From a virus: DNA of 57,406 nucleotides. The notes under the pieces were generated by a model that worked only from the letters and a program-made list of their open reading frames with translations, made no database searches and was not told where the DNA came from. Both the position numbers and the translations under genes were made by a program. Of the stretch, positions 2,139-26,481 are shown piece after piece (the first letter of the stretch is position 1; each line of letters opens with the position of its first letter). The stretch spans positions 1 to 57,406 of the IMG/VR virus record IMGVR_UViG_3300044720_000010. One strand, given 5' to 3'.

Positions 2139-2149
2139 CTACAAACCGC

Positions 2150-2207
2150 TTGACACGCTCCAACACACAACTCCACTATCACCTAATAGACGAATTGGAG
2201 TTGACAG
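2150..2207 (+). promoter_or_regulatory. candidate sigma70 promoter ahead of the GapR-like gene
   Basis: A perfect -35 hexamer ttgaca (2150-2155) is followed after 18 bases by cactat (2174-2179), a moderate -10. A ggag ribosome site lies just before the ATG at 2208. This would drive the GapR-ParB-pentapeptide group separately from the Cro-like gene. Confidence 0.4.
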
Positions 2208-2525: not shown

Positions 2526-2527
2526 AC

Positions 2528-3547
2528 ATGGACATGCTAACCGACTACACCGCCGAGTTCCAACAGGGTGGCGTAAAGGCTGCCATCGCGGCCACTGGCG
2601 CCAAGAGCGGCGACCTGTTGATGGTGCCGATCGACAAAATACGGGTGCCCGAAGGGCTTAATGTACGCGACCGTACAGAAGCCTACGAACGGCACATCGA
2701 AATGCTGTGCGACTCTATCATCGAAAACGGTTTCTTCCGGTGGATGCCGTTGCGTGGCTACGCTGCCAAGGTCGGCGACGAAACGGTGATCTACGTCACG
2801 GGTGGCTTCTCCCGGCTGGAGGCTGCCAAGCTGGCGATCAAACGAGCCAGCATACCGCTTGAAGTGTTGCCGGTGGTGCTGACGCCAAGCGGCACGTCTA
2901 TGGCCGATATCCAGCTCGGCTTGGCGATGGACAACACCGGCCGAGCGCTCACCCCCTACGAGCGTGGCCGGGTGGTCAAGCGGCTAATCGGCTACGGCTG
3001 GAGCCAGCAGGACATCGCCACCAAACTCGTTGTCTCACAGGCTTACGTGAACAACCTGCTTTACTTGCACGGTCTGCCACAGGCCATACAGGACATGGTG
3101 ATGCGCGATCAGGTGAGCGCCAACCACGCCGTCACCACCGCCAAGGCGGTCGGCCCCGACGAGGCCCTGAAGACGTTCCAAGACGCATTATTAGTTACTA
3201 ATAACGAGCGCATCGAAGGCGACCCGTCATCCGAGGACGATGACATCGAAAAGGGCGGAAGCGCTGGCCGAATCAGGCCAAAGGCAACCGGCGTCGTCAG
3301 CAAGAAAATCATTTTGGCGGCGGTAGACTACGCGATTGCGCTTGGCGACATCGAGTTCCTGATCCGCTGGCGCAAGGGCGAGAAGGACGCCGTTGACGAA
3401 CTCGCGGCCACGCTGAAGAAGCCCAAGGCCGTCAAAGCCAAGGCCGTTAAGGCCAAGCGCAAAACCAAAGCGCAGAAAACGGCTGACGCTGTTGCGGCGG
3501 CCGAGATCGGCAAGGCGGCTGACGAACTGGAGGATGACGACCTGTAA
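2528..3547 (+). CDS. ParB-like nuclease-domain protein
   Basis: 339 aa. Residues about 25-115 form a ParB/Srx-type N-terminal domain (IDKIRVPEGLNVRDR, then VTGGFSRLEAAKLA in place of the usual GERR-type box). Next comes a ParB-style helix-turn-helix (GWSQQDIATKLVVSQAYVNN, about 158-177). The C-terminus is a lysine/alanine-rich tail of about 60 residues that could bind DNA non-specifically. No ParA partner is seen nearby, which argues against a standard partition system and for a transcriptional or DNA-organising role. The gene is coupled to the GapR-like gene, and its stop overlaps the ribosome site of the next gene. Confidence 0.82.
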   Translation: MDMLTDYTAEFQQGGVKAAIAATGAKSGDLLMVPIDKIRVPEGLNVRDRTEAYERHIEMLCDSIIENGFFRWMPLRGYAAKVGDETVIYVTGGFSRLEAAKLAIKRASIPLEVLPVVLTPSGTSMADIQLGLAMDNTGRALTPYERGRVVKRLIGYGWSQQDIATKLVVSQAYVNNLLYLHGLPQAIQDMVMRDQVSANHAVTTAKAVGPDEALKTFQDALLVTNNERIEGDPSSEDDDIEKGGSAGRIRPKATGVVSKKIILAAVDYAIALGDIEFLIRWRKGEKDAVDELAATLKKPKAVKAKAVKAKRKTKAQKTADAVAAAEIGKAADELEDDDL

Positions 3548-3560
3548 AGGAGGCCGAACC

Positions 3561-4175
3561 GTGGAAATCCGTCATCAGCATACCAACGAAGTTCTACGAA
3601 CAGTAGAGGGTGTGAACCTCCAGGGTGTGAACCTCCGGGGTGCGTACCTCCAGGGTGCGAACCTCCAGGATGCGAACCTCCAGGATGCGAACCTCCGGGA
3701 TGCGAACCTCCAGGGTGCGTACCTCCAGGGTGCGTACCTCCGGGGTGTAAACCTCCGGGGTGCAGACCTCCGGGGTGCGTACCTCCAGGGTGCGAACCTC
3801 CAGGATGCGAACCTCCGGGGTGCGTACCTCCAGGGTGTGAACCTCCAGGGTGTAAACCTCCGGGGTGCAGACCTCCGGGGTGCGTACCTCCGGGGTGCGT
3901 ACCTCCGGGGTGCGTACCTCCAGGGTGCGAACCTCCAGGATGCGAACCTCCGGGATGCGAACCTCCAGGATGCGAACCTCCAGGGTGTGAAAGGCTATAT
4001 TTGTCTTGGAACAGACACGCGCAACTATCACTTTCGCGCGGTCAAGTGGTCAGACGGCTGGCGGGTAAACGCAGGCTGCCGGTGGTTCACTGTTGCCGAA
4101 GCGGTAGCACACTGGACCGCCAAGGGTAACAACGACGCTTTGGCTCGCGTAGCCATCGTAACGGCTCACAAGTAA
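3561..4175 (+). CDS. pentapeptide-repeat protein
   Basis: 204 aa from a GTG start. The start is set by a near-consensus aaggagg (3547-3553) overlapping the ParB stop, seven bases upstream. Residues 17-141 are 25 perfect tandem pentapeptides of the A(N/Y/D)L(Q/R)(G/D) kind, predicted to form a right-handed quadrilateral beta-helix. The last 60 residues form a separate conserved-looking tail (WSDGWRVNAGCRWFTVAEA). Some pentapeptide proteins (MfpA, Qnr) mimic DNA and bind gyrase, and the GapR neighbour makes a topology link attractive. That remains inference. Confidence 0.85.
   Translation: MEIRHQHTNEVLRTVEGVNLQGVNLRGAYLQGANLQDANLQDANLRDANLQGAYLQGAYLRGVNLRGADLRGAYLQGANLQDANLRGAYLQGVNLQGVNLRGADLRGAYLRGAYLRGAYLQGANLQDANLRDANLQDANLQGVKGYICLGTDTRNYHFRAVKWSDGWRVNAGCRWFTVAEAVAHWTAKGNNDALARVAIVTAHK
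3609..3983 (+). repeat. 25 x 15-bp tandem repeat encoding the pentapeptides
   Basis: Every unit is exactly 15 bp and contains the core acctcc, spaced at strict 15-bp steps from 3616 to 3976. Variation is confined to a few positions in each unit, and nearly all of it changes the encoded residue (G/D, A/V, N/Y/D, Q/R). A 105-bp (seven-unit) higher-order period is visible: units 10-12 and 17-19 encode the same block. This points to expansion by slippage or unequal recombination. Confidence 0.95.
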
Positions 4176-4288
4176 ATGGGCCGGTAAAACCCTCCGGATG
4201 GCTTACAGTAAAGTTCAAGCTGCCGATCGACGCTACGCAACTCACCGCCTCGCCGCGCATCGCAACTCAACGCAATGGGCTACCGCAA
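4176..4288. other. decayed partial duplicate of the next gene's start
   Basis: This gap contains the 24-bp string at 4211-4234 that recurs unchanged at 4358-4381 inside the next gene. It also shares flanking pieces with that gene's start (aaatgggc, atggct-tacag against atggctcacgg). I see no open reading frame of useful length. It looks like a degraded tandem duplication of the first 90 bp of the downstream gene. Confidence 0.6.
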
Positions 4289-4615
4289 ATGGGCTGGAGT
4301 TATAAAGTCTTAAAGATGGGCCGTGACGGTAGGGCGGAATGGCTCACGGCCGAGCTGAAGTTCAAGCTGCCGATCGACGCTGCACGTGCTGCTATGGCTT
4401 ACATGGTTTCGCACGCCGATCGCGGAGAAATGGTTGTCGTCAGCTTGGAGCCGTCGCCCGAGTTGAAGCCGGTAACTGATCGGCTGCGCGAGCATCAAGT
4501 CATGCTTGACTATCTGAAAGCAGTTTACCGGCGCAATTCCAGCATGGAGTTGGGCGACCTAATCCGCGAAATCGATCCGTATTGGATAGAGCCTAATGGA
4601 CAAAATCCAGCTTGA
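4289..4615 (+). CDS. hypothetical early protein (108 aa)
   Basis: Mixed alpha/beta small protein with no recognised family. A part of its beginning is duplicated, in degraded form, just upstream. The last 20 bases overlap the next gene. It belongs to the run of small early genes between the pentapeptide-repeat gene and thyX. Confidence 0.6.
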   Translation: MGWSYKVLKMGRDGRAEWLTAELKFKLPIDAARAAMAYMVSHADRGEMVVVSLEPSPELKPVTDRLREHQVMLDYLKAVYRRNSSMELGDLIREIDPYWIEPNGQNPA

Positions 4616-4799
4616 CACCCGTGACCGGCGCAACCTGTACCGGGAAGACTCGGAAAACGTGTTTGCTGTCGGCATATCGTCTGATGAGCCGGCCGTTGAA
4701 CTGATTGGCGACGTGGTTGAGACGCTGACAGACGCGATCGACACTTTGCGCCAAACCGGAGGGCGGTTCGCATACGTCGTAATGAGGATCGAACGATGA
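4596..4799 (+). CDS. hypothetical early protein (67 aa)
   Basis: Acidic small protein with a predicted helix near the end (ETLTDAIDTLRQ). It begins inside the 3' end of the preceding gene and overlaps the next by ATGA, indicating translational coupling. No family recognised. Confidence 0.55.
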   Translation: MDKIQLDTRDRRNLYREDSENVFAVGISSDEPAVELIGDVVETLTDAIDTLRQTGGRFAYVVMRIER

Positions 4800-5005
4800 A
4801 GCCTTACGATGAACGGCTAGGCTGTCTCGCGTTTCCACAAGACGGCGTGTGGCTTGTCGTAGAGCCCAGCGGCAAACTGATAGCCTGTACCGGAAATGAT
4901 GAGTACGAGGCTCGCGCCATAGCGCAATACCACAACTTAGTAGGTGATCTATGCCATACGCTCGCCGTGCCAGCGATCGCGGGTGGCGAGGGAGAGCCGA
5001 CATGA
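4796..5005 (+). CDS. hypothetical early protein (69 aa)
   Basis: Begins in an ATGA overlap with the previous gene and ends in an ATGA overlap with the next. It has a beta-strand-rich start (GVWLVVEPSGKLIACTG) followed by a helix (YEARAIAQYHN). The fold is not recognised. The coupling on both sides supports it as a real gene. Confidence 0.55.
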   Translation: MKPYDERLGCLAFPQDGVWLVVEPSGKLIACTGNDEYEARAIAQYHNLVGDLCHTLAVPAIAGGEGEPT

Positions 5006-5448
5006 GCGAGAACCCGCCACGCGCCGATGCGACGCAGCATGCTGAAAAGTTTATGAGGGTAGTAAAGAACTATGTAGCAAACACGCCAATATTTACAGGG
5101 CATCTTGCCCTCGCCCTACAGCAGTACGGCGACGGGCGAGCCCGCGAGGCACGCAACGTCCTAATCGACCGGCACGACTCCACTTCTGGCGATCATGTCC
5201 TGGCGAACTGCGCCTTCTGTCAACTCGTAGATCACGTCCGCCGCGAGGCCAGAGCAGCGGCGCTTGTTGGTGTACGGGGCGCCTATCGGGCGATCCGCGC
5301 GCAACAGGTCCACCATCAAAGTCTTGCAGACACTGAAGGCATTGCCGGCAGAGACAATGATCGTGCCCTCGCCCATGCCTATCGCATCGCGGCGAACACG
5401 ATAGAGAACGTACTCCTAGAAGCTGCCACCGAGGACGAGATCCCATGA
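5002..5448 (+). CDS. hypothetical early protein (148 aa)
   Basis: The ATG at 5002 overlaps the preceding stop (ATGA), so I prefer it to the in-frame ATG at 4951. Mostly helical, with a CAFC pair (Cys-x2-Cys) near the middle and several histidines, so metal binding is possible. No family recognised. It is part of the chain of coupled early genes. Confidence 0.6.
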   Translation: MSENPPRADATQHAEKFMRVVKNYVANTPIFTGHLALALQQYGDGRAREARNVLIDRHDSTSGDHVLANCAFCQLVDHVRREARAAALVGVRGAYRAIRAQQVHHQSLADTEGIAGRDNDRALAHAYRIAANTIENVLLEAATEDEIP

Positions 5449-5481
5449 CCGCGAGCGCCCTCGCCTCGAAGCCGCCGTCCG

Positions 5482-5574
5482 ATGGAACATGATTATTGGT
5501 GGCAGATGCTACGCGCAGCGATCTTCGCGTTGGCGTTCTGCGGTGGCTGGGAAATAGCTAAGCTAACGCCATGA
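5482..5574 (+). CDS. 30-aa membrane peptide
   Basis: A short open frame encodes a peptide with a hydrophobic stretch (MLRAAIFALAFCGGW) flanked by polar ends, consistent with one transmembrane segment. Its TGA overlaps the next ATG. A 15-codon frame (5445-5492) bridges it to the preceding gene and may act only as a translation relay. Evidence rests on overlaps and hydrophobicity. Confidence 0.4.
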   Translation: MEHDYWWQMLRAAIFALAFCGGWEIAKLTP

Positions 5575-5750
5575 AGCTAATCGCCTACCGTTGTGGTCTG
5601 CCCGCTTGGGTCAGAGGTAAGTGCAAGCGGCAAGGCGGTACGCGCATCTGTGGCGTATGTCTCGGCGATCTGTATCAACAGGACTTTCATGAACCAAGAC
5701 ACCCTAGACGAAGCCGTAAAAGCCGCCAAACGGTTCCTCGAACTCGCTGA
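5571..5750 (+). CDS. small Cys-containing basic peptide (59 aa)
   Basis: Starts in an ATGA overlap with the membrane peptide. It has four cysteines in its first 30 residues (CG, KCKRQGG, CGVC), possibly zinc-binding, and an arginine-rich tail. The tail overlaps the next gene in another frame by 62 bp, so the gene may be shorter or not expressed. Low certainty. Confidence 0.35.
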   Translation: MKLIAYRCGLPAWVRGKCKRQGGTRICGVCLGDLYQQDFHEPRHPRRSRKSRQTVPRTR

Positions 5751-5853
5751 GAACTTAGAGTTAGGCATCGTAGGCACCCGTGCATCGGGAGCCGTCAAGC
5801 GGGCCAGCATGGACCTGACGCGAGCGTTAACCGATTTAAGGAAACCGGGATGA
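5689..5853 (+). CDS. hypothetical helical protein (54 aa)
   Basis: The ATG at 5689 follows an agga site and gives a clean amphipathic helical protein. An upstream in-frame extension looks less protein-like. It ends in an ATGA overlap with the next small gene. No family recognised. Confidence 0.5.
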   Translation: MNQDTLDEAVKAAKRFLELAENLELGIVGTRASGAVKRASMDLTRALTDLRKPG

Positions 5854-5996
5854 TACAAATCTGTATCTTAAACCCGAGACTAGAACGCAGATGGGGCTTA
5901 CGGTTCCCACTATACAACTACCACTGGCTGGTTTTATGGCTTGGCTGGGTCGAGCTAAGATTTGGCCGATGGCCGTCGATACGGAGAGAACCATGA
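5850..5996 (+). CDS. 48-aa tryptophan-rich peptide
   Basis: A coupled frame (ATGA at both ends) encodes a peptide with an aromatic, hydrophobic middle (YNYHWLVLWLGWVELRFG) between arginine-rich ends, likely membrane-associated. Too short for a family call. Its position in an unbroken chain of stop/start overlaps is the main support. Confidence 0.45.
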   Translation: MIQICILNPRLERRWGLRFPLYNYHWLVLWLGWVELRFGRWPSIRREP

Positions 5997-6268
5997 GCAC
6001 CATAGACGACCTGAAGGCCAAGGTAGATCGACTGCGGGATCAACTACGTGACGCGCAGAAGTCGTACAACGACGCCAGGATCGCAGAATACCCGATCAAG
6101 CCGGGACAGGTGTTTATTAATAAGAAGGGTCAGCGTGGTCAAGTTATCAATTTAGAAGTTCACTATGGTAGAATTACCCCGATACTCGGGTTGTTTAATA
6201 AAGACGGCACCCTCGGTGCTCGTGAAAGTGTCATGAACCACTGGCTTGAGTGGAAGGCAGAGCAATGA
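5993..6268 (+). CDS. hypothetical protein with N-terminal coiled coil (91 aa)
   Basis: The start at 5993 overlaps the previous stop. Residues 1-30 form a heptad-like helix (LKAKVDRLRDQLRDAQ), followed by a small beta domain beginning KPGQVFINKKGQRGQVI that resembles a KOW/SH3-type strand pair. Function unknown. Coupled by ATGA to the next gene. Confidence 0.6.
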   Translation: MSTIDDLKAKVDRLRDQLRDAQKSYNDARIAEYPIKPGQVFINKKGQRGQVINLEVHYGRITPILGLFNKDGTLGARESVMNHWLEWKAEQ

Positions 6269-6609
6269 CCGATGACCCGAGAGTCCAACGCCTGAACGCC
6301 GTTGCAGCCCAAATGATTACCGATCACAAGTATGACCCGCACTTCGCCGGGATGGCTGAGCGGATCGACATAGAGACGCGGCTGTTCTTGGCTCGGTGTG
6401 ACGCGCTCCGCGAACTCGCGCTCAAAGATATGTTGGACCTGCGCAGTCAGTTTAGCGACGAACGGTATGCCGTGGAAACTGATCGGAAGATCGGTTTCTA
6501 CACGCAAGTCGATGGTCGATGGATAGTAACACCCCCATCAACGGAGAAGTTACGTGCGACAGCAATTGCGGTGATGCACTACTGCGCCGGCACTCCGCAA
6601 CAGGATTGA
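6265..6609 (+). CDS. hypothetical early protein (114 aa)
   Basis: Helical acidic protein starting in an ATGA overlap, with no recognised family. It ends the tightly coupled part of the early chain; the next gene begins 44 bp later. Confidence 0.55.
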   Translation: MTDDPRVQRLNAVAAQMITDHKYDPHFAGMAERIDIETRLFLARCDALRELALKDMLDLRSQFSDERYAVETDRKIGFYTQVDGRWIVTPPSTEKLRATAIAVMHYCAGTPQQD

Positions 6610-6653
6610 TCCATCACGAAAATCGCTGAGATACTTTCACACGAGCTGAAGCA

Positions 6654-6830
6654 ATGATCTCCGCTAAACAGCGTGTCGCCATCCACATGGCCGCTGCACT
6701 CCCGCTCGACCTACCGCCTCGCCGTACTGCGTTCCACGTATGGAAGTGGTGGATGCACCTTGCGCTCATGGCGTTCGCGTCAACGTGGGTCGCGGTAGGC
6801 GTTGTCTACATACTACGGAAGGGGATGTAA
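6654..6830 (+). CDS. small single-span membrane protein (58 aa)
   Basis: The C-terminal half holds one clear transmembrane helix (HLALMAFASTWVAVGVVYIL) preceded by a basic/aromatic stretch and ending in RKGM, so the topology is likely N-in or N-out with a short tail. It lies among early genes, far from the lysis genes, so a holin role is less likely than membrane tethering or host interference. No family recognised. Confidence 0.5.
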   Translation: MISAKQRVAIHMAAALPLDLPPRRTAFHVWKWWMHLALMAFASTWVAVGVVYILRKGM

Positions 6831-6832
6831 CT

Positions 6833-7069
6833 GTGAGCAGCCACCATAGACGGTCAAGGGTCTGGCTTGAAAAACGTCTAGCCACTTATCCGTACTTGGC
6901 AACTGCACCCGTATCAACCAGACCGCAAGACGTTGACCCGGCCATACAGGAAACCTGTTGCTCGGCTGTACTCCATACAGGCGTTCGGACTTGGGCGTTC
7001 GTCTCACCTGAATCCAGGGGTGTGTTCCTGCAAACCGTACCTATGGCTCAGCAGGTTGATGGGCTGTGA
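6833..7069 (+). CDS. hypothetical protein (78 aa, GTG start)
   Basis: A GTG two bases after the previous stop opens a 78-aa frame that ends in a GTGA overlap with the next gene. The composition is basic at the start and otherwise unremarkable. A competing frame (6933-7433) looks less protein-like and runs through the next gene. Confidence 0.4.
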   Translation: MSSHHRRSRVWLEKRLATYPYLATAPVSTRPQDVDPAIQETCCSAVLHTGVRTWAFVSPESRGVFLQTVPMAQQVDGL

Positions 7070-15036: not shown

Positions 15037-18000
15037 CTAGTTGTGTTTGAAGGTGGCGATTACCGCTTGCTCTCTAGCCGCCGTGGTCCAAGTCCATGTC
15101 GGGTTCCTGGCTGTAGCGGCAGTTTGTACCTCGTAAGCAAGGGCGATGGCAAACGCTACGCCGGGAGCCAAGGCGAGCTGGTCCGTGATTGTACCGACGT
15201 TCACCGATGCCGTAGTAGTTCTGGCATCCCCGAGACCGAATATGATTAGCTCGTTGTCCTGAGTCGGCGTGACACTGTTTGGCTGTAGCGTCGTGGCAGA
15301 AGCCGTCTTGTTGCCGTTTTCGGCGTCAAATATGCCACCATTCGAGAACGCGGCTACCGCGAGGGCGGGGAAGTGACCGCTGGTGTTGTGCGTAAATGTG
15401 TGGCCGCTTCCGACTGTCGGACTTACAACGTAATGCAGTTGGGTCCGACCGCCGCCGCTCCCGGAATCCTGTAAGGTCAAGTGGCTCCACGTATTGCCTT
15501 TGCTGTCCGATATCGCCGTGTTGTCTCCGTTGTCGCACGTAACCATGACAAGCAGAGTGGCGCCTGTCGTGTCGATCGCCGAGGAGGTTACGTTGGACCC
15601 GCCCGTGGTTTGAGCAACGACGTGGGCAATAAGCGTGATCGGTTGGAAGAACGTTGGCCCGTAGAACGTATCGTCCTCGGTCACAAGACCCGGCAATAGC
15701 GTTATTGTACCGGGGACCACTGTGGGAGCGTAGAACGTGTCATCCTCGGTCACGAGGCCCGCCAGTAACGTGCCGCTGCTACTGGTGATCGGATTGTAGA
15801 TGGTGTCGGTGTCGGCGATGAGCCCCGGCAGCAGGTATGCCGACCCCATTGACGCGGTTGGCCCGTAGAACGTATCGTCCTCGGTCACAAGACCCGGCAA
15901 TAGCACCAACAGTTCGTGCGCGATCGTCCACGGCAGGAAGACGTCTGCCTCCGTCAACAGCTCCGGTGATAGTGTGGCTACCCCCATTGTCACTGTTGGC
16001 GGGTAGAAGGTATCCGACTCCCCGAACAACGACGGATACAGCCTGCGTGCAACCAAGTCTGGAGCGTAGAACGTGTCCGTCTCAGTGAACAGACCGGGCA
16101 GCAGGTGGGTCGCACCCCGCGCAACAACAGGTACGAAGAACGTGTCTGTCTCGGTGAACAGTTCCGGCTCTAAGGTTATATCTCCGACGAAAAGCGTCCA
16201 ACGATACTTCTGCCATGACACATAGATGTCCCGAACCGATTCAAGCTCGAAAGTAAGGCGAGAGATCGAGCCGTCTGTGGCAAACATCGCATTAGTGTAT
16301 GTCCATGTGTCCGCCGAGATTCCGGCCACGGTTCGTAGTAATGTTACGCCGTTATAAACTCGGATCGTGTAGGTGGTCCCGGCTTCCGGACCTGTGCTAA
16401 CAGCTTCGTGTTCAAGCAGAAAGTTTCCCTGCGTAATTCGATCGCGATGAGCCCATGTAAAGACAATATCGGCCCCTGCTGCGGTGCCGGTGGTAACGTC
16501 GGCAAAAGGCGTACCGTTGATCTGAAAGTTGCCCGGTGGGTAAGGCCGGCCCTGCCTCCCGCCAATATCGATATCATCGATCGGCGCATCATCCATCGGC
16601 AGCTTGTCGGTACTGGTACGTGTCAGCAGCTTGACGAATACCGTTTCACCGCTGGCGTACTCCCGACCATCGCCTGCCGGCATCGCCGTCTCAAACCATA
16701 CAACAACACTAGCGTCGTGCGGTGCTGGCAAGGTGTCAGCGACACCCCTGGCCACGGTGGCTGTTCCTGCTTCCGTGTCGATGGCGTCTACTCGCATGTA
16801 CTCATCGTCAATGAGTACCGCCGAACCGACTTCGATTTCCGAAGCGATGTCGAACAGCGAAGTGATAGCGGTGATCGACAAACCCGTGTCGTAGTAGCCA
16901 ATCGGATCTACCAGCTCATAAACCGGGTCCCACGAGTTAATGCCTCGCTCGACCCAATCCTCTGCGCCAACCTTGCTGGCGATCACGTAGTCTTGGGAGT
17001 CAGAGTTGGGTGGTTGGGCGAAGACCTTGATCGAGCCCGAATCAGGTTGGACCGTTGCCAGATTTGCCGCTGTAAGGTTCTCAGCGAGATCCTTGTACGT
17101 CATTTCCTCGATACGTCGCACATCTACGACATGCGCAGTACGATCGGGCGGAATCCACGCTGAAGGCTCAACCGAAACAAAGCTGGCCACGTCTAGTGAG
17201 AACACATCTTCTACCGCCGTGATCGTGATCGAGCCGTCGCTTGCCTCATCTATGCGACCGGCACGCAACACCAGCTCGTGAATGCCTCGGCTATGCGCGC
17301 TTATCCGGAAGGCGCCACCTGGCGGAATCGCCCACGCTGCGCGATCGAGCTTGACTGTCAGCCGGCGCAGCTCTCGCGATTGCATTTCGACATCGCGTTG
17401 GGCCAGCCGCAGAGCGAGATCGGCTGTCGGACAGCCAGGATACTCAACCGATGTGCTTATCGTGACACCGAGAGACTGGATAGACGCGAGATCCTGAACG
17501 CGGACTTGCCCATCTTCATCAGTGAGCGGGTCGTGATAGGTCACAACCACTTCGTTGAAACTGGTGTCCGTCGCCGACGACTGATCCTCGCTGATGTCGA
17601 GCAAGCCGGAATTGAAGTCGAACAGCGGCAAGGCTTCAACGGTGTAATCTTTTCGGATTAGCTTTAGCGTCAACAGCCCGGTCGTGCGGTCGATGTATAT
17701 GACACCGCCGATGTGGTTGATGACGGTCTGAACGAATTTATCTATGTCGTCTTCCCGGTTCCACCGGAGACAGAGGCCGAACCCTTCGTCGAACAGGATG
17801 TCCGCTGCTGCTGTGAAAGCTGAATCATCGATCAATGCGGCGGGAAGCCCTCTACCCCACGCCCGGTTGGTAGCGCACTCGTAGATGATGTGAGCCGGGT
17901 TCATCGCGTGGATATCGCTGTCCGGACCCATAAGGATGCGACAGGTATCGATGTTCCAGGGCTCGTTCCTATCCCATCCTGCCGTGTAGCGCCTGACGCG

Positions 18001-18390
18001 CATTTTCCACGGCTTCGGGTAAGGGTTGTTCGACGTGACCCGCCCGTAATAGAACAGGCTCGTAACCCCCCGCCAAGCCGGCCTGAGTCCCGGTAGATGA
18101 TCGTTGATGATCGTGGGCACCGTTTGGTCTGCGGCGCCCATGAGTACCGCTAGGGTGCCCTTAATGCCCCCTTCTTTATCATCCCCGCCGAACAGGTCGG
18201 GCTTGTTGATGTCGAAGATTACGTTGTCGAGAACCTGCCCCGGAGGGTCGATGGCGCCGTTCCACGCCAGGATATCGCCTACCTTGATTGCGACCAGCTC
18301 ATTCACCGGGCCGCGCGACACGCCCATGTGGATCGACATGTAGTAGCGGTAGCCAACAACCTGACTCGTGCCGCCTGACTTGCTAGCCAT
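15037..18390 (-). CDS. tail tip / host-specificity protein (gpJ-like)
   Basis: 1117 aa from the ATG at 18390, preferred over a TTG at 18396. The first roughly 650 residues look like a phage tip-attachment protein: baseplate-like beta domains, with fibronectin-like segments further on. Residues about 730-920 hold eight copies of a 22-residue repeat built around PGL(V/F)TE(D/T)DTFY. The last 150 residues form a separate beta domain (SNVTSSAIDTTGATLLVMV) that may contact the receptor. The gene lies at the end of the tail module, as gpJ does. Confidence 0.8.
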   Translation of the reverse strand: MASKSGGTSQVVGYRYYMSIHMGVSRGPVNELVAIKVGDILAWNGAIDPPGQVLDNVIFDINKPDLFGGDDKEGGIKGTLAVLMGAADQTVPTIINDHLPGLRPAWRGVTSLFYYGRVTSNNPYPKPWKMRVRRYTAGWDRNEPWNIDTCRILMGPDSDIHAMNPAHIIYECATNRAWGRGLPAALIDDSAFTAAADILFDEGFGLCLRWNREDDIDKFVQTVINHIGGVIYIDRTTGLLTLKLIRKDYTVEALPLFDFNSGLLDISEDQSSATDTSFNEVVVTYHDPLTDEDGQVRVQDLASIQSLGVTISTSVEYPGCPTADLALRLAQRDVEMQSRELRRLTVKLDRAAWAIPPGGAFRISAHSRGIHELVLRAGRIDEASDGSITITAVEDVFSLDVASFVSVEPSAWIPPDRTAHVVDVRRIEEMTYKDLAENLTAANLATVQPDSGSIKVFAQPPNSDSQDYVIASKVGAEDWVERGINSWDPVYELVDPIGYYDTGLSITAITSLFDIASEIEVGSAVLIDDEYMRVDAIDTEAGTATVARGVADTLPAPHDASVVVWFETAMPAGDGREYASGETVFVKLLTRTSTDKLPMDDAPIDDIDIGGRQGRPYPPGNFQINGTPFADVTTGTAAGADIVFTWAHRDRITQGNFLLEHEAVSTGPEAGTTYTIRVYNGVTLLRTVAGISADTWTYTNAMFATDGSISRLTFELESVRDIYVSWQKYRWTLFVGDITLEPELFTETDTFFVPVVARGATHLLPGLFTETDTFYAPDLVARRLYPSLFGESDTFYPPTVTMGVATLSPELLTEADVFLPWTIAHELLVLLPGLVTEDDTFYGPTASMGSAYLLPGLIADTDTIYNPITSSSGTLLAGLVTEDDTFYAPTVVPGTITLLPGLVTEDDTFYGPTFFQPITLIAHVVAQTTGGSNVTSSAIDTTGATLLVMVTCDNGDNTAISDSKGNTWSHLTLQDSGSGGGRTQLHYVVSPTVGSGHTFTHNTSGHFPALAVAAFSNGGIFDAENGNKTASATTLQPNSVTPTQDNELIIFGLGDARTTTASVNVGTITDQLALAPGVAFAIALAYEVQTAATARNPTWTWTTAAREQAVIATFKHN
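15632..16190 (-). repeat. eight ~66-bp repeats in the tail-tip gene
   Basis: Eight in-frame repeats encode the core (T/G)E(D/S/T)DTFYxP. Two of them share 48 identical bases (15653-15700 and 15857-15904, 204 bp apart), which signals recent duplication or gene conversion inside the tract. Confidence 0.85.
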
Positions 18391-18556
18391 AGGCAAAACC
18401 TACTACGACGCCACTGCCGATCAGCCCGAGCCCTACCGTCCAGTAAAACGGCTCATCGGAAAACGAGAATGATCCTACCTCTCGTGTACTTATGACCCAC
18501 CCGACCGCCAGCAGTTCAACGCCACACATGAACAGGCCGATGGCAATCCAGATCAT
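18383..18556 (-). CDS. small two-span membrane protein (57 aa)
   Basis: Begins in an ATGA overlap with the preceding gene and overlaps the tail-tip start by 8 bp. Two hydrophobic segments (WIAIGLFMCGVELLAVGWVI and WTVGLGLIGSGVVVGFAYG) flank a short acidic loop. It is unusual inside a tail module. Expression is supported by the overlaps at both ends. Confidence 0.55.
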   Translation of the reverse strand: MIWIAIGLFMCGVELLAVGWVISTREVGSFSFSDEPFYWTVGLGLIGSGVVVGFAYG

Positions 18557-18759
18557 CAAACCCTCTGTGCGTCAGGATCGTTGCGGGCGATCTCAACCAC
18601 CTTCATCGCCAGCGCGTCACCCGTAGCAACAAGTACGCTTTCAGGGAGTCCGTCAGTGATGAAGTCGGACCAGCTAAGCCCTTGCTTGGCGAACCACTTG
18701 CGCGGCTCGCGTGCGCACATCCCGGCGTCCCGAAGGTGTTTGATGGTTACGATTACCAC
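18556..18759 (-). CDS. conserved tail-module protein (67 aa)
   Basis: Short protein with the pattern IKHLRDAGMCAREPRKWFAKQGLSW, which I recognise as a small protein recurring beside tail-tip genes in related phages. The function is not known; a chaperone or assembly role for the tip is a guess from context. Ends in an ATGA overlap with the next gene. Confidence 0.6.
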   Translation of the reverse strand: MVIVTIKHLRDAGMCAREPRKWFAKQGLSWSDFITDGLPESVLVATGDALAMKVVEIARNDPDAQRV

Positions 18760-19011
18760 TTACTTTCCTTTGGCGCTCGCCGGCTTCTTGCGAATGGCTT
18801 CCGACTTGAAGTTGCCGGTATGTAGTACCATCCAATCGGAGGACCAGCAATCACCAAAGATTACTGCTTGCGGTGTGCCCTCTTTGTGCTGCGGAAAGTT
18901 GAAGTCGGCAAACGTTGAAGGCTTTGCGTCGGTACTGACCGGCTTCTTCGCTGTGAGCGCGGTAATCGCAAAAGAAACAACGAGAAGTGCGATGGCCCAA
19001 ATGAAATTCAT
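18760..19011 (-). CDS. tail tip assembly protein with N-terminal hydrophobic segment (83 aa)
   Basis: One N-terminal transmembrane-like helix (IWAIALLVVSFAITALTA) is followed by FADFNFPQHKEGTPQAVIFG. That pattern resembles a short domain found next to tail-tip genes in many siphoviruses, where it may help assemble the tail tip. It overlaps the upstream gene by one base. Functional assignment is tentative. Confidence 0.55.
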   Translation of the reverse strand: MNFIWAIALLVVSFAITALTAKKPVSTDAKPSTFADFNFPQHKEGTPQAVIFGDCWSSDWMVLHTGNFKSEAIRKKPASAKGK

Positions 19012-20222
19012 CAGAACACCGGATCACCAGAGAACGGACTTTTGCCGGGGGTATCGGGGAAGCCGCCGAAGTTGAGGATGTTGTTGAACTTGTCGTTGCA
19101 GACTTGTCGAGTGCGCCGGCAGCCAGGGAAAAAGTTCAGCGATTGGCCGGGTAACAACCCGAACGTACTGCCAAGCAAGATCACCGTGTCTCCTACGTGA
19201 GACTTGATGCCTCGGCGCTCAACGATACCAGCTCGACGTGGGCGCAGCGGATACAAAGCAAGATCACCGTTATCCTGCAATACCAGCGTGTCACCTATGT
19301 CGCCTTTTGTATCTGTAGCAAACAAGACGGTGGAGCCGGCATACAAGACTAAATTACCGTCTTCTTGCAGAGCGAATGAATCTGCTCCCGATTCAGCCGT
19401 ATCCGTCTGCCATAGCGTAGTGATCTCGTTTTGAGTAAGGATGACATTTCCGTTCTCCAGAAACACCAACGCGAACTCGTTGGACGGACTCCGGACAAAA
19501 TCGGTAGGCCGCATGACATCGCCGGGGTTCATCGCAACCACGCCGTCGCTGCCGATCCCTCCTACATCCGTCCCCGTTCTCCATAGCACGGTGCTTGTAG
19601 TCCACTCCAGATAGCCGCCGTCAAAGTAACCATCTTCCAGCGCGGTCAGACCGGCAGCGGTAATAGAGTTGCCGGTAAACGAACCTATTGTGGTTGTAGT
19701 CTTGAAATCTTCCGGGTTCACCTTGCATTGCGAATCGTACAAAGCGTAGGGGCAGCCCCGAGTCCATGATAGCCGCAGGCCGCCGCGTTTGAACGAAGCA
19801 ACGATCGTGGCGCAAGTTATTCGCACCTTAACTTCGTCGAGCTGCGTCATCCCCGAAACCGTACCAACCCACATCACGCGCGCTTCATTGTCATAGCCGC
19901 TTATTATGCCGGCGTGGAGACGGCGAACGGTGACGTATACGGTATCTGAAGGCGTTGCCCCGGATGTCCTGAACATGGCCGGAAAATCTTCCGTGACCGG
20001 CATCGTGATATTCAGTTCGCTGTTGGTAGCCTCTCCATCCTGCTTTACCCCGTCGTCGGATATTGCGGTTGCGGTATAGAGGTTCCCGTCAGGGTCCAGC
20101 ACGTCAACGTCGATTGCATTGTAGCGCCAATAGAAATTTGCGCCCCCGGACACGCGAAGAAACTCATACAGGAGTATCGGAGACCCGTAAAAGTTGGAAG
20201 TCTCTAATAGTTCAAACGCCAT
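19011..20222 (-). CDS. DUF2163/BR0599-type tail tip protein with inserted B-lectin domain
   Basis: 403 aa. Residues about 1-205 match the N-terminal part of the DUF2163/BR0599 family (WTRGCPYALYDSQCKVNP). Residues about 330-395 match its C-terminal part (FFPGCRRTRQVCNDKFNNI, NFGGFPDTPG). Between them, about 208-330, lies a bulb-type mannose-binding lectin module with one perfect QxDxNxVxY motif (QEDGNLVLY, 286-294) and two degenerate ones (LENGNVIL, QDNGDLALY). In gene transfer agents the parent family sits at the tail tip. The insert suggests glycan binding at the host surface. Confidence 0.8.
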   Translation of the reverse strand: MAFELLETSNFYGSPILLYEFLRVSGGANFYWRYNAIDVDVLDPDGNLYTATAISDDGVKQDGEATNSELNITMPVTEDFPAMFRTSGATPSDTVYVTVRRLHAGIISGYDNEARVMWVGTVSGMTQLDEVKVRITCATIVASFKRGGLRLSWTRGCPYALYDSQCKVNPEDFKTTTTIGSFTGNSITAAGLTALEDGYFDGGYLEWTTSTVLWRTGTDVGGIGSDGVVAMNPGDVMRPTDFVRSPSNEFALVFLENGNVILTQNEITTLWQTDTAESGADSFALQEDGNLVLYAGSTVLFATDTKGDIGDTLVLQDNGDLALYPLRPRRAGIVERRGIKSHVGDTVILLGSTFGLLPGQSLNFFPGCRRTRQVCNDKFNNILNFGGFPDTPGKSPFSGDPVF

Positions 20223-20223
20223 A

Positions 20224-22152
20224 TCAAAGCTCCTTCGTGCCTATACTGCGCACGAAAGCCGTTGGCTGGTTCGATCCGAAAATCTCATCCGACGTAACAA
20301 TGTGGTTGCCGTCTTCCAATATAATGTGAGAGTCAGCGTCGGCCGGATTGAAGGTGGTATCGCCCCATGCGACTCCGTTCCGAGGTATCGGTGTTGATCT
20401 AACAAACGGCCCGACCGCGTTCAACTTACCTCTGGCAAACTGAGCGCCAAAGTTACCCGGCCACCCGCAACCGGCGAGGATATAAATCGGTCCTGTTGGT
20501 ATATTGTTTGAGAAATCGAAACCACCGACTGAGGTTTCAGGATCTTGTGTGGGTCCGCCGCTCCCGGTCCATGTGTCCGGACTGCTGGAAGCGTTGCACA
20601 GATAGATCATCTTTTCATCAAGTAACACCAACACTCCAACCCACTGTCCTAACTCTCCGACATCGAATGTGGGCATTCTGTCGGGATAGCCCCAGCCAGC
20701 GTGGCCGCCGCCACCGCTGCCGCCTTTCATAGCTACGAAAGCGCTTCCGGCCAAGGCGGGAAAACTTGTGCTAAAGTCCAACTGTACCGGGTTCGTAAGC
20801 GTGAAATTTTCATCAGCAATACCCACACAGATATTGTACTCGGTCCCCGCATGGATCGGTTGAAACTCAAAGTAGACAACCCGCTGATCACCCTCATCAT
20901 CATCCGTTCCTTCGCCGGAATCATCCTGTCCAGGGAGTGAGAAGGGCGGGTTACGGATCTCCGGAAGGCCACGAAACAGTGTGGTCACGGTAGCCACGCC
21001 GTAGGTATCCGTGTGGTGAACGATCTCGATGCTATCTTGATCGAGCCGACACAGATTCAGAAAACTGATACGCCGAATGGCGCTCATCGGAAGCGCTGCA
21101 TCGAATGCGGACGAAAGGGTGATCCGTTCGGTTGACCCGTCTCCAATTAGCGCCGAACTTAAAACCTGTTTGTAGATCCTGGCGCCACTCCACAAGTGTA
21201 TCAGGATGTGTTCTCGCCCTCGGAACGGACCCTCGAAAGAAGTAAACCCGCACCGCTTCACGTCAAAGCTATGAGAGTCTATCGATATGTTGGCGACTAC
21301 TTCGAAATCCTCGAAAAACGTTGGAACCCATATCGGATACCGTCTGCCTTTCAACAAATAGAGGAACCCACGGATAAAAGCGTGTTTCGCCCTACCCTTC
21401 AGAAAGAACGTGAATTGCTGAACCGTCTGCCCAGCCACGTTCGGTTGAATTCTCGCTCGCTTTCCTGTCTGGTTATCCAGCTCCGCGATGATCCGCTTAT
21501 ATTCATAGGACAAATCGTTTACATCGTTCGGTTCTGTCTCCAGTACAAAATACCCGTTATACAAGCTCAACGTAATCGGAGCCTGCGAAGGGTTGTCCTG
21601 TACCGATGAAAATTTGACCCTGACCTGATACGCTTTATCGGCCTTCCGGTTGGCTTGCGGCATAGCATCGATGCGACATTTCTGCATCGGGTATATCCGG
21701 GTTCCAACCGGCCACGTTCTCGTTAGCGCGGAGCCGGTAATTAGCGTCGTACCGCCTGTGCTCCCAGCGTTCTCCGCGATTTCGTAATCCCAAGGATTGG
21801 CCCCTTGAATAAAGAAGGCCGTATCGTCGTGTAGCTCCGACTCGACGGCTTCAACTTCAAGATACGACGTGCCGGCCGAAGCCGCCACGGTAAGCTTTCG
21901 TATATCGTGCCATATCGGCAGGTAAATATCGGCTCCCCCGACGCGCTCAACGAACATGTCAAACAGCGTCCGGGTGGTTCCGCGCACGGTGAAGGTCATT
22001 TCGAATGACCGGCGTGGCGATGTCCTCATAGAGAACCGCTGCTCGGCACCAATCGGTGACGCCAGGATGCCCGTCATCCATTCAAGAGTTTCGGTGATGC
22101 CATCCGCCCAGTTTGGCGGGATCGACCACACTGGAAGATTTTCAAGTGCCAT
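20224..22152 (-). CDS. distal tail protein with C-terminal SPRY-like domain
   Basis: 642 aa. The first half contains two related segments (SPRRSFEMTFTVRGTTRTLF and QQFTFFLKGRAKHAFIRGF), each followed by a wall of basic/aromatic residues, as in distal tail proteins. Residues about 425-600 have SPRY/B30.2-like features (NICVGIADENF, GQWVGVLVLLDEKMIYLCNA, GPIYILAGCGWPG). SPRY-like lectin folds occur in phage tail tips as ligand-binding modules. The gene follows the tape measure, as expected for a distal tail protein. Confidence 0.7.
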   Translation of the reverse strand: MALENLPVWSIPPNWADGITETLEWMTGILASPIGAEQRFSMRTSPRRSFEMTFTVRGTTRTLFDMFVERVGGADIYLPIWHDIRKLTVAASAGTSYLEVEAVESELHDDTAFFIQGANPWDYEIAENAGSTGGTTLITGSALTRTWPVGTRIYPMQKCRIDAMPQANRKADKAYQVRVKFSSVQDNPSQAPITLSLYNGYFVLETEPNDVNDLSYEYKRIIAELDNQTGKRARIQPNVAGQTVQQFTFFLKGRAKHAFIRGFLYLLKGRRYPIWVPTFFEDFEVVANISIDSHSFDVKRCGFTSFEGPFRGREHILIHLWSGARIYKQVLSSALIGDGSTERITLSSAFDAALPMSAIRRISFLNLCRLDQDSIEIVHHTDTYGVATVTTLFRGLPEIRNPPFSLPGQDDSGEGTDDDEGDQRVVYFEFQPIHAGTEYNICVGIADENFTLTNPVQLDFSTSFPALAGSAFVAMKGGSGGGGHAGWGYPDRMPTFDVGELGQWVGVLVLLDEKMIYLCNASSSPDTWTGSGGPTQDPETSVGGFDFSNNIPTGPIYILAGCGWPGNFGAQFARGKLNAVGPFVRSTPIPRNGVAWGDTTFNPADADSHIILEDGNHIVTSDEIFGSNQPTAFVRSIGTKEL

Positions 22153-22315
22153 CCCGCCTCCGACGAATGATCCGTCTCCGCTTGACTGGCTTGGGTACGG
22201 GACAACCCTCCGTAGCTGTCACAGGAGCAACGGGAACCGGGTCCGGGGTATCCAAGTGGGTCCGAGGCTTCGCGGCTCTCCTAACCCGTTCCTGTGAGGT
22301 TCCCCACGGGGTCAT
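22142..22315 (-). CDS. short basic, proline-rich protein (57 aa)
   Basis: ATG overlaps the tape-measure stop and the frame ends inside the next gene's start. The first half is Pro/Val/Thr-rich and the C-terminus is strongly basic (KRRRIIRRRRDG). It could be a tape-measure accessory peptide or an RNA- or DNA-binding tail. It may also be a chance frame, though the overlaps favour a real gene. Confidence 0.45.
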   Translation of the reverse strand: MTPWGTSQERVRRAAKPRTHLDTPDPVPVAPVTATEGCPVPKPVKRRRIIRRRRDGT

Positions 22316-25300
22316 CCTTTGACGAGCCCCCTTATCGTGGCTGCGTTCCGCACCAGTGTTTGCACGATGACCCGCTCGCCGTGAGCGCTCGCCATTGCGG
22401 CCGGTATCTGGCCTTCGTCCATCACCAGCACACTACGGATATTCACCGCTGACCCGCCGCCACCGTTCATGATGTTGCGCGGGCTGCCGCGAGACAGGAT
22501 CTCCTCGCCACGTTGAAGGATGGCCGCCTGCTCGTCTGGCGCCAGTCCAACCACCTGACCAGAGTGGTAGCGGGGAGCGTTGGTAAACCAGCTCTGTTGG
22601 ACTGGCCGTCGCGGTACGACGGTTTGCCCGACGACACCGCCACCGTGGAATATGAATCCGGCAGCCGATGCACCGGCTGCATCGCCGAAGAAAGTGCCAC
22701 CTGAAGTTAAAGAGAGGCCGCCGCCACTGTCTCCAAACAAGCCCCCGAGTAAGCCGCCAATTCCTCCACCGCCACCGCCCCCACCAATTCCGAATAGCGA
22801 TGATGCCAATTTCAACCCTTCGTACTTCAGAATCGCAGTCGCAATATCCTTTAATAATTGGGCGAAAAATGAGATCGCTGCCTGTTTGGTAGCATCGATA
22901 ACGTCCTTGAATTTTTTCGTCCCTGCGACTAGGCCACCCATCGCCTCGCCGACTGTGTTGAACGCCGTGGTCAAGCCTGTCGAGAATGATTGCTCGACAG
23001 CAGTTTTAATCTCTTTGAACAGTGGCGAGACGTACTGAGCCTGCGACCGGAACTCGGCCACTTTGGCAGTCAGCAACGCGATCTTTTCAGGTGGTAGCGC
23101 CAGCCCTTCGGCCGTCGCCAAGAACTTTTCAAGATTGCTTGCTGCGCCGAGGATCGCCGTACCCGTCAGGTCAAACGCTTCTTTCGTCCTTTTCTCTTTT
23201 TCCGCTATCGTAATATCACCAGCGGCTTCCAGAGCATTATAGGTTTGGACCAGTGTTTGACGGGTTGTTAACGCCTCTTTTCCTGCCGCTTCGTATGAAC
23301 TAAAGGTGGCTTGCCTAAGAGCTGCCGCCCGCTCAACTTCAGTCCGCTTGATAAGACTGTCGTACCGCTCACGGTCAACGGTTGAGGATCGTTCACGCAG
23401 CTTTTCGAGCTGTTTGATCTCGTTGTCGTACCGAAGGTTGACCGCTTCGGTTAATTGGTCAAGTTGAGATTTATTTTGGTTGAGGTTCTGACGGCGAAGT
23501 TCACTGACTTGTTTCTCTGCCGTGTCGAGCTGGTCTTGTTCCTGCTTACGCTTTTGGATATCGGCCCGAGCTTCACCTTCACCGCGTTTGCGGATTGCGT
23601 ACAACTCCTCGTAATTTTCACGGCCGGCAGCAACAGCGTCAGCAACAGCTTTCGAACCGGCAGCTTCAATGGCTACCGCGTTTACTCCGTCCTGTATCCG
23701 CTGTTTTGCATTATCTTGATCGCGTTGGTAAGTCTCCTTGGACTTCTGATCTCTGAAAAGGGCGATTTCTCTATCAATGATCGCCTGAGCTTCGCTTCCT
23801 TTAATGCCTTCATTTTGCAGTCGTAAAAGAATTTCTTCTCGCTTGATCCTTTCTTCCTCGGCCTGACTCGAAGCGCGAACGAGATCAAGTTGACGCTCGG
23901 CATTCCGTAACGCGGTGGCGCCGGCTGCTACCGCCGCAGCGGTAGGCCCACTGGTGACGCCGCCACCGTCGTCAGGTACAATCCGACCGGACGTTGTAGC
24001 CGCCTCACGTCCGCCTATGCTGTAGTGGCCGGCATCCTTGTGGCTGAACGTTGAACCAACGGCGATAGGTAAGCCCCGTTCCGCCGCAATCCCAACCACG
24101 GCTTTGTCCAGCATATCGTACAACGGCCCGCCCGCTGCCATAGATCCCGGAACAGGCTTTCCCGTGTCGTCTACGATCCGAACATCTATTGCTCGACCGG
24201 AAGCGTGCTCCGAGGGCATTCCGGTATCTCTAACCGTAGCACCCGGCCGAAACGTGCTTATCGCCTCGGCTCGATAGCCGGGCGGCAAAGCACTGGTTGC
24301 AGCAGCGAGGATAGCGACGAGAGTTTTAAGCTCCTCCGTGTTTACGGCAAGACTGCCGGTAGAGAACCTGCCTGCTGCTCCAGGGATGGGAGCTGTAACC
24401 GGATCGCCCGGCGCCCCTGTACCCACGGATGGCGTGGTCATGTAACCTGCGGCAGCCCCTACCGCACTACCGACCAGCCCCGCCGCAGTTCTCGTTGGGT
24501 AGGTTATGACGCTAAGATAACCACTGATAATCTTTAACGCAGCCTGAACTTTGGGACCATCAAGAGTGCTGACAAAACGATCTACAGCTTCGATACCTTT
24601 CGAAAGACCGTCAACAAGACTCGTAACATTCGTGATGACAGAATTAAACGCGCTGCTCTCACCCAACTTATCGATGAAACTGTTCCACGATGTACGCAGT
24701 TTTATCACAGCCTCATCAAATGGACTTAATTTCTCTTTCCTGGCTTTGTCGTATGTCTCACCAAGGAGACGAAGAATCTCAATTTGGGCTTGCTGCTCTT
24801 TTCCCGCGAGAAACAGCCCACGAATGTACTCTGCGTTCTTCGCCCCGATCGCCGGGTACACAGCAACGAGTCGATCAAATGCCTCAATGCCACCGGATAT
24901 CCCGGTAGTCAGATCCTTCATCGCTTCCGGCACAGTCTTGCCGGTAACAAGAGCCATCGCCTGAGCCGCCAAAGCGACTTCTCGCAGCTTATCCGGACGA
25001 ACGTTCGCGTCAAGCGCGGTTCGAATAGCTTTCCCGGCATCATCCCAAGCCACGCCGAGATCGCGAAGTTCTTTCCGTAGAGTGGTAAGAGATCCTACGT
25101 TTTGATCGGCTGCATACTTATTGGCCGTCAGAAGCGCGGTAAATTCCCGGTTTGATGACAGCGTTTGTAAACGCGCCGTCAGCGCCTCAACCCCAACAGT
25201 CACCGCGCCAACAGCCACAGCCACAACTGGAAGCCAGCGTAGAGCGGCCATCCCGAAGATTTGAAAAAACTGTCCGCCCTGCTGAGCGAGTATTTGAATC

Positions 25301-26481
25301 CCGCCTTGACCGGACGCGAGCCCGGTCAGCACGTCGTTTACTTGGTATCCGAGATTCGTCAACTCATACGGACGAAGCCCAAAAGCTCCGACAGGAGCGG
25401 CAGCGCCTCGGGCGGACCCTGTAGCTGCCGCTGTTGCTCCCGGTACGGTTGCTGCCGGTGCTGCTGCCTGCGCCCTTTGTGCCTGCCGGATGGCGTCTAC
25501 GGTGGCCCGAGCTGCGGCAGTCTCATCCGCCACCCGCTGTCTCGTAAGGGCGCGCGTTTCATCGTTGAACTTTCTGACGGATGCCAATACGGCATCACGC
25601 GCTATAATTTGTTCTCTGGTCTCCTTTTGAGCGGCTTGTATCCGCTGAACCGTAGCGTCCCGTTCAATTGCTATTCGTTTTGCTGCTGCATCGCGATCGG
25701 CGTCTACCCTCGCCCGCGTAGCCGCGAGAGCTTCGTCGTAGTCACGCTTTTGCGCGGCGGCCGACTCAGCGTTGCGCCGCAATGCGTCTTGGTACTGCCG
25801 TTGCCCTTCACTTGCCATCTTCGCTCGGGCGTCGGCTTGGGCGCGTAGCGAAGTGGTTAGTCTCTCTTGCTCGGCCCGCTCGGCGACAGCCGCCTCTTTG
25901 GCTAGGCGCTGATTTCGCGTCAGGTCAAGTAGCGCTGCGCTGAGCTTGGTACGCCCCTGGCCGGTCTGTTCAGCCACAGCATTAAGGTCGCGCTCGGCTT
26001 GCGCGAGGTTGGCGGTATCGACACCAACTTTCCGCAGCGCTTCACCGATACGATCGTACTCGGCTTTCTGTTTGGTGAGGGCGGCTTCGGCTTTCTCATA
26101 GGCTGTTACCAGCCCTGATAGCTTCCCCTCTGCCTTCGCGGTAGTATCGCTCGACGCCTCTAACGATTGTCTGTAGTCGGTGAGCTTCTTACGAGTCGCC
26201 TCAACTCGCGCTTCGTTCTGCGCCAGGACGGTATCGAAGTTCTTGTATCGGCCGATCAGAGCGTCAAGGCCGGCGAGGTTTCGCGCCGCCTGATCGAGCT
26301 TCGTCAGAGAGGACGCCAGCTCGCGTTCTTTAATCTCAGCCCGGTTGGCCGCACCGATCTGAGCGTCAAGCGCTTCCGTGATAAGCTTGACGCCATCAGC
26401 GACTTGCTTGAACCCGGCTGTCGATAAGTTCTCGACGCGGACCCGTAGCAAGACATCCCGTGAGGTTCCACGATCGCTCAT
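22312..26481 (-). CDS. tail tape measure protein with M15-like peptidase domain
   Basis: 1389 aa. Residues 1-350 form a long coiled coil, then a TMP_2-type segment (GLRPYELTNLGYQVNDVLTG). Residues about 700-820 carry an M15/VanY-like motif set: FRPGATVRD, SEHASGRAIDVRI with the His/Asp metal ligands, and DAGHYS with a second His. The C-terminal part is more coiled coil, then a Gly-rich hydrophobic patch (GGGGGGGIGGLLGGLFG). Tape measures set tail length and can enter the envelope; the embedded peptidase would open peptidoglycan during DNA injection. Confidence 0.88.
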   Translation of the reverse strand: MSDRGTSRDVLLRVRVENLSTAGFKQVADGVKLITEALDAQIGAANRAEIKERELASSLTKLDQAARNLAGLDALIGRYKNFDTVLAQNEARVEATRKKLTDYRQSLEASSDTTAKAEGKLSGLVTAYEKAEAALTKQKAEYDRIGEALRKVGVDTANLAQAERDLNAVAEQTGQGRTKLSAALLDLTRNQRLAKEAAVAERAEQERLTTSLRAQADARAKMASEGQRQYQDALRRNAESAAAQKRDYDEALAATRARVDADRDAAAKRIAIERDATVQRIQAAQKETREQIIARDAVLASVRKFNDETRALTRQRVADETAAARATVDAIRQAQRAQAAAPAATVPGATAAATGSARGAAAPVGAFGLRPYELTNLGYQVNDVLTGLASGQGGIQILAQQGGQFFQIFGMAALRWLPVVAVAVGAVTVGVEALTARLQTLSSNREFTALLTANKYAADQNVGSLTTLRKELRDLGVAWDDAGKAIRTALDANVRPDKLREVALAAQAMALVTGKTVPEAMKDLTTGISGGIEAFDRLVAVYPAIGAKNAEYIRGLFLAGKEQQAQIEILRLLGETYDKARKEKLSPFDEAVIKLRTSWNSFIDKLGESSAFNSVITNVTSLVDGLSKGIEAVDRFVSTLDGPKVQAALKIISGYLSVITYPTRTAAGLVGSAVGAAAGYMTTPSVGTGAPGDPVTAPIPGAAGRFSTGSLAVNTEELKTLVAILAAATSALPPGYRAEAISTFRPGATVRDTGMPSEHASGRAIDVRIVDDTGKPVPGSMAAGGPLYDMLDKAVVGIAAERGLPIAVGSTFSHKDAGHYSIGGREAATTSGRIVPDDGGGVTSGPTAAAVAAGATALRNAERQLDLVRASSQAEEERIKREEILLRLQNEGIKGSEAQAIIDREIALFRDQKSKETYQRDQDNAKQRIQDGVNAVAIEAAGSKAVADAVAAGRENYEELYAIRKRGEGEARADIQKRKQEQDQLDTAEKQVSELRRQNLNQNKSQLDQLTEAVNLRYDNEIKQLEKLRERSSTVDRERYDSLIKRTEVERAAALRQATFSSYEAAGKEALTTRQTLVQTYNALEAAGDITIAEKEKRTKEAFDLTGTAILGAASNLEKFLATAEGLALPPEKIALLTAKVAEFRSQAQYVSPLFKEIKTAVEQSFSTGLTTAFNTVGEAMGGLVAGTKKFKDVIDATKQAAISFFAQLLKDIATAILKYEGLKLASSLFGIGGGGGGGGIGGLLGGLFGDSGGGLSLTSGGTFFGDAAGASAAGFIFHGGGVVGQTVVPRRPVQQSWFTNAPRYHSGQVVGLAPDEQAAILQRGEEILSRGSPRNIMNGGGGSAVNIRSVLVMDEGQIPAAMASAHGERVIVQTLVRNAATIRGLVKG

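Follow-up and report, generated by a model that had tools for sequence, protein, structure and literature searches.

The window analysed here, a single stretch of 57,406 bases, is identical to an entire IMG/VR virus record, from a phage known solely from environmental DNA. Its tail proteins mark it as a Chi/JBD30-like siphophage, and its top cultured relatives are members of Casjensviridae (Jacunavirus SLP-22 and Rhizobium phage RHph_X2_30) and Chi, with 43–46% identity across the matched parts. Terminase, portal, major head protein and DNA polymerase genes are also encoded, outside the tail module. The tail genes follow the order tape measure, distal tail protein, lectin-bearing gene, two small assembly proteins and hub (Table 1), and the distal tail protein and hub that neighbor the lectin-bearing gene match the corresponding chains of Chi and JBD30.

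Table 1. Features of the tail module, in window positions; residue numbers refer to the encoded protein.
Feature	Positions	Strand	Evidence
Tape measure protein	22312..26481	-	phrog_2335 (7.9e-61)
Distal tail protein; core 1-398, C-terminal extension ~400-642 (SPRY-like)	20224..22152	-	8rk3_U (5.8e-57), 8vjh_B (5.4e-51) over 7-398; phrog_1082
C-terminal extension of the distal tail protein, ~240 aa	20224..20955	-	
Upper baseplate/hub protein, DUF2163-BR0599 family, 403 aa, lectin carrier	19011..20222	-	phrog_778 (3.5e-68); 8vjh_D (2.1e-64); 8rk3_g (4.8e-35)
First cysteine pair of metal (Fe-S) site, C157/C166	19725..19754	-	JBD30 gp50 Cys147/Cys156
Inserted B_lectin domain (predicted beta-prism II), residues 209-333, 125 aa	19224..19598	-	Pyocin L2 (2.2e-17); AF2 model; Foldseek
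Degenerate site LENGNVILT, residues 255-263	19434..19460	-	Sequence
Perfect sugar-site motif QEDGNLVLY, residues 286-294	19341..19367	-	Aligns with site C2 of pyocin L1
Degenerate site QDNGDLALY, residues 316-324	19251..19277	-	Sequence
Second cysteine pair, C368/C375	19098..19121	-	JBD30 gp50 Cys238/Cys245
Small tail assembly proteins of 83 and 67 aa, encoded between lectin and hub genes	18556..19011	-	phrog_1180, phrog_1196
Central hub/minor tail protein; core ~10-735, repeat-rich C-terminus	15037..18396	-	8vjh_A (9.9e-185), 8rk3_o (3.3e-159); phrog_1101
Hub C-terminus with several LLPGLxTEDDTFYxP-type repeats, then an unmatched domain	15037..16180	-	

The carrier is the upper baseplate, or hub, protein of the tail tip. 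The tail-tip location given in the original prediction is upheld, with the refinement that the carrier is not the receptor-binding tip itself. Its match to phrog_778 (tail assembly) comes in two stretches, and Pfam BR0599 is recognized at residues 336–394 (46.5 bits; cut-off 22.9). The N-terminal attachment domain PF09931 scores below its cut-off (19 bits against 26), as it does in an insert-free relative (20.1 bits in L010), and the region is covered by the PDB match. A Foldseek search with an AlphaFold model of the complete protein retrieved the JBD30 (4.3e-23) and Chi (3.1e-22) proteins and the R4C and RcGTA hubs, with lambda gpL matching more weakly. The four cysteines in Table 1 are invariant in an alignment of 37 sequences; their JBD30 gp50 counterparts hold a putative metal (PMC11445458), and a bound Fe-S cluster or metal is seen in the RcGTA, R4C and JBD30 structures (PMC7296036, PMC10276861, PMC11445458). 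Upper baseplate proteins are widely labelled 'FAD/FMN-containing dehydrogenase' in GenBank phage records, a label for which sequence and structures give no support.

Residues 1–208 and 334–403 of the carrier are collinear with Chi gp27 (8vjh_D) and likewise with JBD30 gp50 (8rk3_g), which share with the window the whole core, the gene order and the four cysteines but are only 272–273 residues long and have no insert. The remaining 125 residues (209–333) are extra, so that a DUF2163/BR0599 protein is indeed split by an insert of about the predicted 120 residues. Compared with the PDB, the insert matches pyocin L2 best, followed by pyocin L1, bulb lectins and putidacin L1; among the PHROG families it matches phrog_19296 (7.2e-14). 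With the window sequence left out of the lectin HMM, the insert scores 72.9 bits, against a maximum of 7.1 bits among 2000 shuffles of it, which together with PDB E-values down to 2e-17 argues that the likeness is not due to chance. The B_lectin HMM search that had been proposed as a check did produce a match, of 22.3 bits for the whole protein and 26.5 bits for the domain alone, which falls short of the PF01453 gathering cut-off (32.4 bits). This shortfall concerns a statistical threshold; the assignment to the B_lectins rests on the PDB and PHROG matches and on the fold.

Structure prediction, also proposed beforehand, returned a beta-prism. The AF2 model of the lectin alone has a mean pLDDT of 82, with 93–98 in the core and an unsure placement of 20 residues at the start and 15 at the end. 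Pyocin L1 (9.2e-8) and LlpA (1.8e-7) lead the Foldseek results; the matches listed are all of the B_lectin type and include the daffodil and snowdrop agglutinins (TM 0.81 by target). On the strength of this model we confidently assign the insert to the beta-prism II fold, and its predicted identity as a bulb-type lectin is thereby corroborated. Pyocins L1 and L2 and putidacin L1 (LlpA), the closest solved B_lectins both by sequence (38–41% identity in the aligned part) and by fold, are free proteins with two tandem lectins and a C-terminal extension, whereas the window has one domain within a virion protein and thus lacks the two tandem domains by which lectin-like bacteriocins (LlpA/pyocin L) are recognized.

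The anticipated one perfect and two degenerate QxDxNxVxY motifs are all present. The central one is the sole perfect motif in the six frames of the window, retains all five key residues (Q286, D288, N290, V292 and Y294), and is the counterpart of site C2 of pyocin L1 (QEDGNFVIYKGTTALWH aligned against QEDGNLVLYAGSTVLFA). Intact sites of pyocin L1 bind D-rhamnose better than D-mannose, with mM affinity, and putidacin L1 shares this preference for D-rhamnose (PMC3916391). In the window lectin, His194 of pyocin L1, which contacts O6 of mannose, is replaced by alanine, while the C6 pocket (Val184/Ala191) is Val/Val. Because of these two features, the site sequence leans towards a preference for a 6-deoxy sugar such as D-rhamnose.

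In the model of the complete protein, the insert is flanked by two strands (204–209 and 333–343) and hence replaces the turn of a hairpin; the insertion point falls between the two conserved cysteine pairs. Hub and lectin were modelled from two separate alignments, as a 49-row joint alignment misplaced the lectins; pLDDT is 34–50 for most of residues 212–281, and the model does not give the orientation of the lectin relative to the baseplate. In RcGTA and R4C, the Fe-S domain is divided into two halves by a segment called an 'oligosaccharide-binding' domain (residues 168–249 and 162–243, respectively) (PMC7296036, PMC10276861). By its position between the cysteine pairs, the lectin is therefore grafted onto a domain already suspected of glycan contact. 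JBD30 gp50 is present in three copies, with domain II on the outer surface of the baseplate (PMC11445458). By analogy, the window lectin would be present in three copies and exposed on the outer surface.

The adjacent distal tail protein has no lectin, as judged by Pfam and PDB profile comparison, and lacks the 159–175 N-terminal residues of its Chi and JBD30 counterparts. Its C-terminal extension is only SPRY-like: a homologue on a related contig (L156, below) scores 20.5 bits against a SPRY cut-off of 26.3. It is possible that this extension is another binding module in the same ring.

The gap at the insertion site is mostly 3–9 residues in 89 relative open reading frames, compared with 125 in the window. 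None of the 684 cultured phage records that match the upper baseplate protein has the insert; only one covers more than 80% of the query, with an alignment span of 777 bases, too short for the insert. Scans for close relatives, whether queried with the complete protein or just with its lectin, yielded no second lectin-bearing copy. B_lectins are absent from 26 of 27 records and genomes that encode carrier relatives, and the remaining one has a weak match in a 235-residue open reading frame that was judged to be chance. No single protein joins hub and lectin in 369 gammaproteobacterial and 385 alphaproteobacterial genomes. The only lectin match in a cultured phage, Pseudomonas phage Riah (L006, OR351070.1), was rejected since the gene (5992–6597) resembles pyocin L2, has a broken frame and does not belong to the tail module; it lies upstream of the repressor, a phage-borne bacteriocin gene. 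Larger prophage relatives contain inserts other than lectins. The gammaproteobacterial prophage L149 (G274, contig 19), for example, encodes a 554-residue BR0599 protein (2054–3718, minus strand) with an insert of ~240 residues between the cysteine pairs and no lectin motif; other large proteins occur in L237, L239 and L240.

Further lectin-bearing tail-tip proteins surfaced only through lectin-profile scans of viral contigs. One is on L156, the 4.4-kb contig IMGVR_UViG_3300026036_000004, which has the gene order of the window and whose distal tail protein is 46% identical over 650 residues and whose upper baseplate protein is 65% identical over 103 residues. Its lectin is 52% identical to that of the window and is placed after residue 105 instead of 208. 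This may reflect an internal deletion or a chimera rather than a different insertion site, a choice that L156 alone does not settle as the contig ends within the lectin. Against a deletion or chimera, L259, a complete RcGTA-type hub protein of 425 residues (PF09931 in two stretches, plus BR0599), has a lectin, without a perfect motif, in the attachment-domain hairpin that corresponds by alignment to that of L156.

In eleven contigs (L154, L155 and L157–L165), the lectin forms the N-terminus of a larger protein whose next domain, in those tested, is the distal tail core (phrog_1082); nine of them have an insert-free upper baseplate gene downstream. At least nine contigs, including L108–L110, L209, L251, L254, L274 and L279, carry B_lectins in a lambda-type gpL (PF05100), with about four tandem lectins and six to nine perfect motifs; by inspection, the gene order in L110 is tape measure-M-L-K-I-J. 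All eight perfect motifs of the gpL protein P0006 lie between its cysteine pairs, in the stretch from C193 to C924, whereas the lectin of L253 is placed after both cysteine pairs. Two other proteins differ from these types. L134, from marine virus AG-345-A17, encodes a gpL-like protein (2986–3978) in which a cupredoxin-like stretch appears by eye to be inserted and which has no cysteine-rich C-terminus. L166 encodes a 1145-residue protein of unknown family (3418–6852) with B_lectins at residues 751–978 and five perfect motifs.

In a tree of 56 lectin sequences, the window and L156 are paired (support 99/91), which suggests that the lectin was relocated within one lineage. They belong to a wider group of moderate support (88/92), together with lectins of distal tail proteins (L164 and L165), L166 and one bacterial sequence. 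The pyocin L/LlpA domains form a separate clade (98/95), the gpL lectins fall elsewhere, and the deepest forks are unresolved. Since the gpL lectins lie in another clade, their acquisition was probably independent of that in the window, and it is likely that the lectin entered tail tips in at least two acquisitions.

The gpL proteins parallel the window in that B_lectins are grafted into an Fe-S hub protein, but the family is different and about four lectins are present instead of one; the gpL region is hypervariable (PMC13243795). The RcGTA and R4C hubs match in fold and have no B_lectin, their oligosaccharide-binding domain being part of the core (PMC7296036, PMC10276861). In the 'evolved Dit' proteins of Gram-positive phages, which form a ring in the tail tip, carbohydrate-binding modules are inserted into loops (PMC7291167); there, the carrier is Dit rather than an upper baseplate protein, the modules are of other kinds and the hosts are mostly Gram-positive. 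Glycan modules on tail tips were thus known. In open papers we found no relevant report of B_lectin, bulb-type or mannose-binding lectins in phage tails, and a B_lectin in these carriers is undescribed there. The original prediction that no phage example with this insertion point had been described holds for the exact point, which was found in no other protein; the same kind of lectin does occur elsewhere in other tail tips.

We consider it probable that the lectin is an adhesin for a host surface polysaccharide, spliced into the upper baseplate protein of this Chi/JBD30-like siphophage. A single B_lectin would be accommodated at the hairpin turn of the domain between the metal-binding cysteine pairs, such that the upper baseplate core keeps packing onto the hub and the distal tail ring and displays the lectin, in three copies if the stoichiometry is that of JBD30. 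The lectin would bind polysaccharide residues of the mannose type or, with greater likelihood, of the D-rhamnose type. As single sites would be weak (mM), binding is expected to be reversible, with several copies acting on a repeating glycan, and the tail would be held and oriented before contact with the final receptor is made by the central hub or its fibres. More tentatively, and as part of a wider reading judged as a whole, the position and number of the lectin would tune which surface polysaccharide is gripped.

Counting against an adhesin, only one of the three sites is intact and the Pfam gathering score is missed. The two degenerate sites also fit a lectin fold that has lost sugar binding and acts structurally, as a spacer or as a platform on which, for instance, side fibres or the SPRY-like part of the distal tail protein dock; in JBD30, fibre attachment sites are formed by the upper baseplate and distal tail proteins (PMC11445458), and the inserted lectin of L259 has no perfect motif. 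We regard such a role as unlikely, because the central site retains its key residues and the related lectins of other tail tips (distal tail proteins, gpL) have one to nine perfect motifs. Mannans are bound by plant-type B_lectins, and the lectin might thus recognize an environmental sugar (in mucus, biofilm or an exopolysaccharide matrix, or mannans from plants or algae) and keep the phage where hosts grow. However, the nearest solved relatives bind D-rhamnose of bacterial LPS (PMC3916391), and the position of the lectin beside the cell-contacting end of the tail suggests a host-surface role, which makes this quite improbable. Finally, although the phage is represented by one IMG/VR record, an assembly chimera or annotation artefact is hardly credible: the frame is single and uninterrupted, GC is even across the gene (0.54, 0.54 and 0.57), homology resumes exactly on both sides of the insert, and L156 has a related lectin in the same gene.

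The recurrence of lectin grafts across tail tips is the more interesting part of these results. Such grafts link a well-studied sugar-binding fold, known from plants and bacteriocins, with the core of the tail tip in Chi/JBD30- and lambda-type phages, a core for which glycan binding was suspected earlier from the oligosaccharide-binding domains of the RcGTA and R4C hubs. Binding by pyocin L1 was probed by mutating the motif aspartate (PMC3916391). Because the site residues and this null mutation are transferable to the window lectin, the adsorption role of core proteins becomes directly testable. For an uncultured phage, the presence of such a lectin provides a sequence handle on the surface sugar that it uses.
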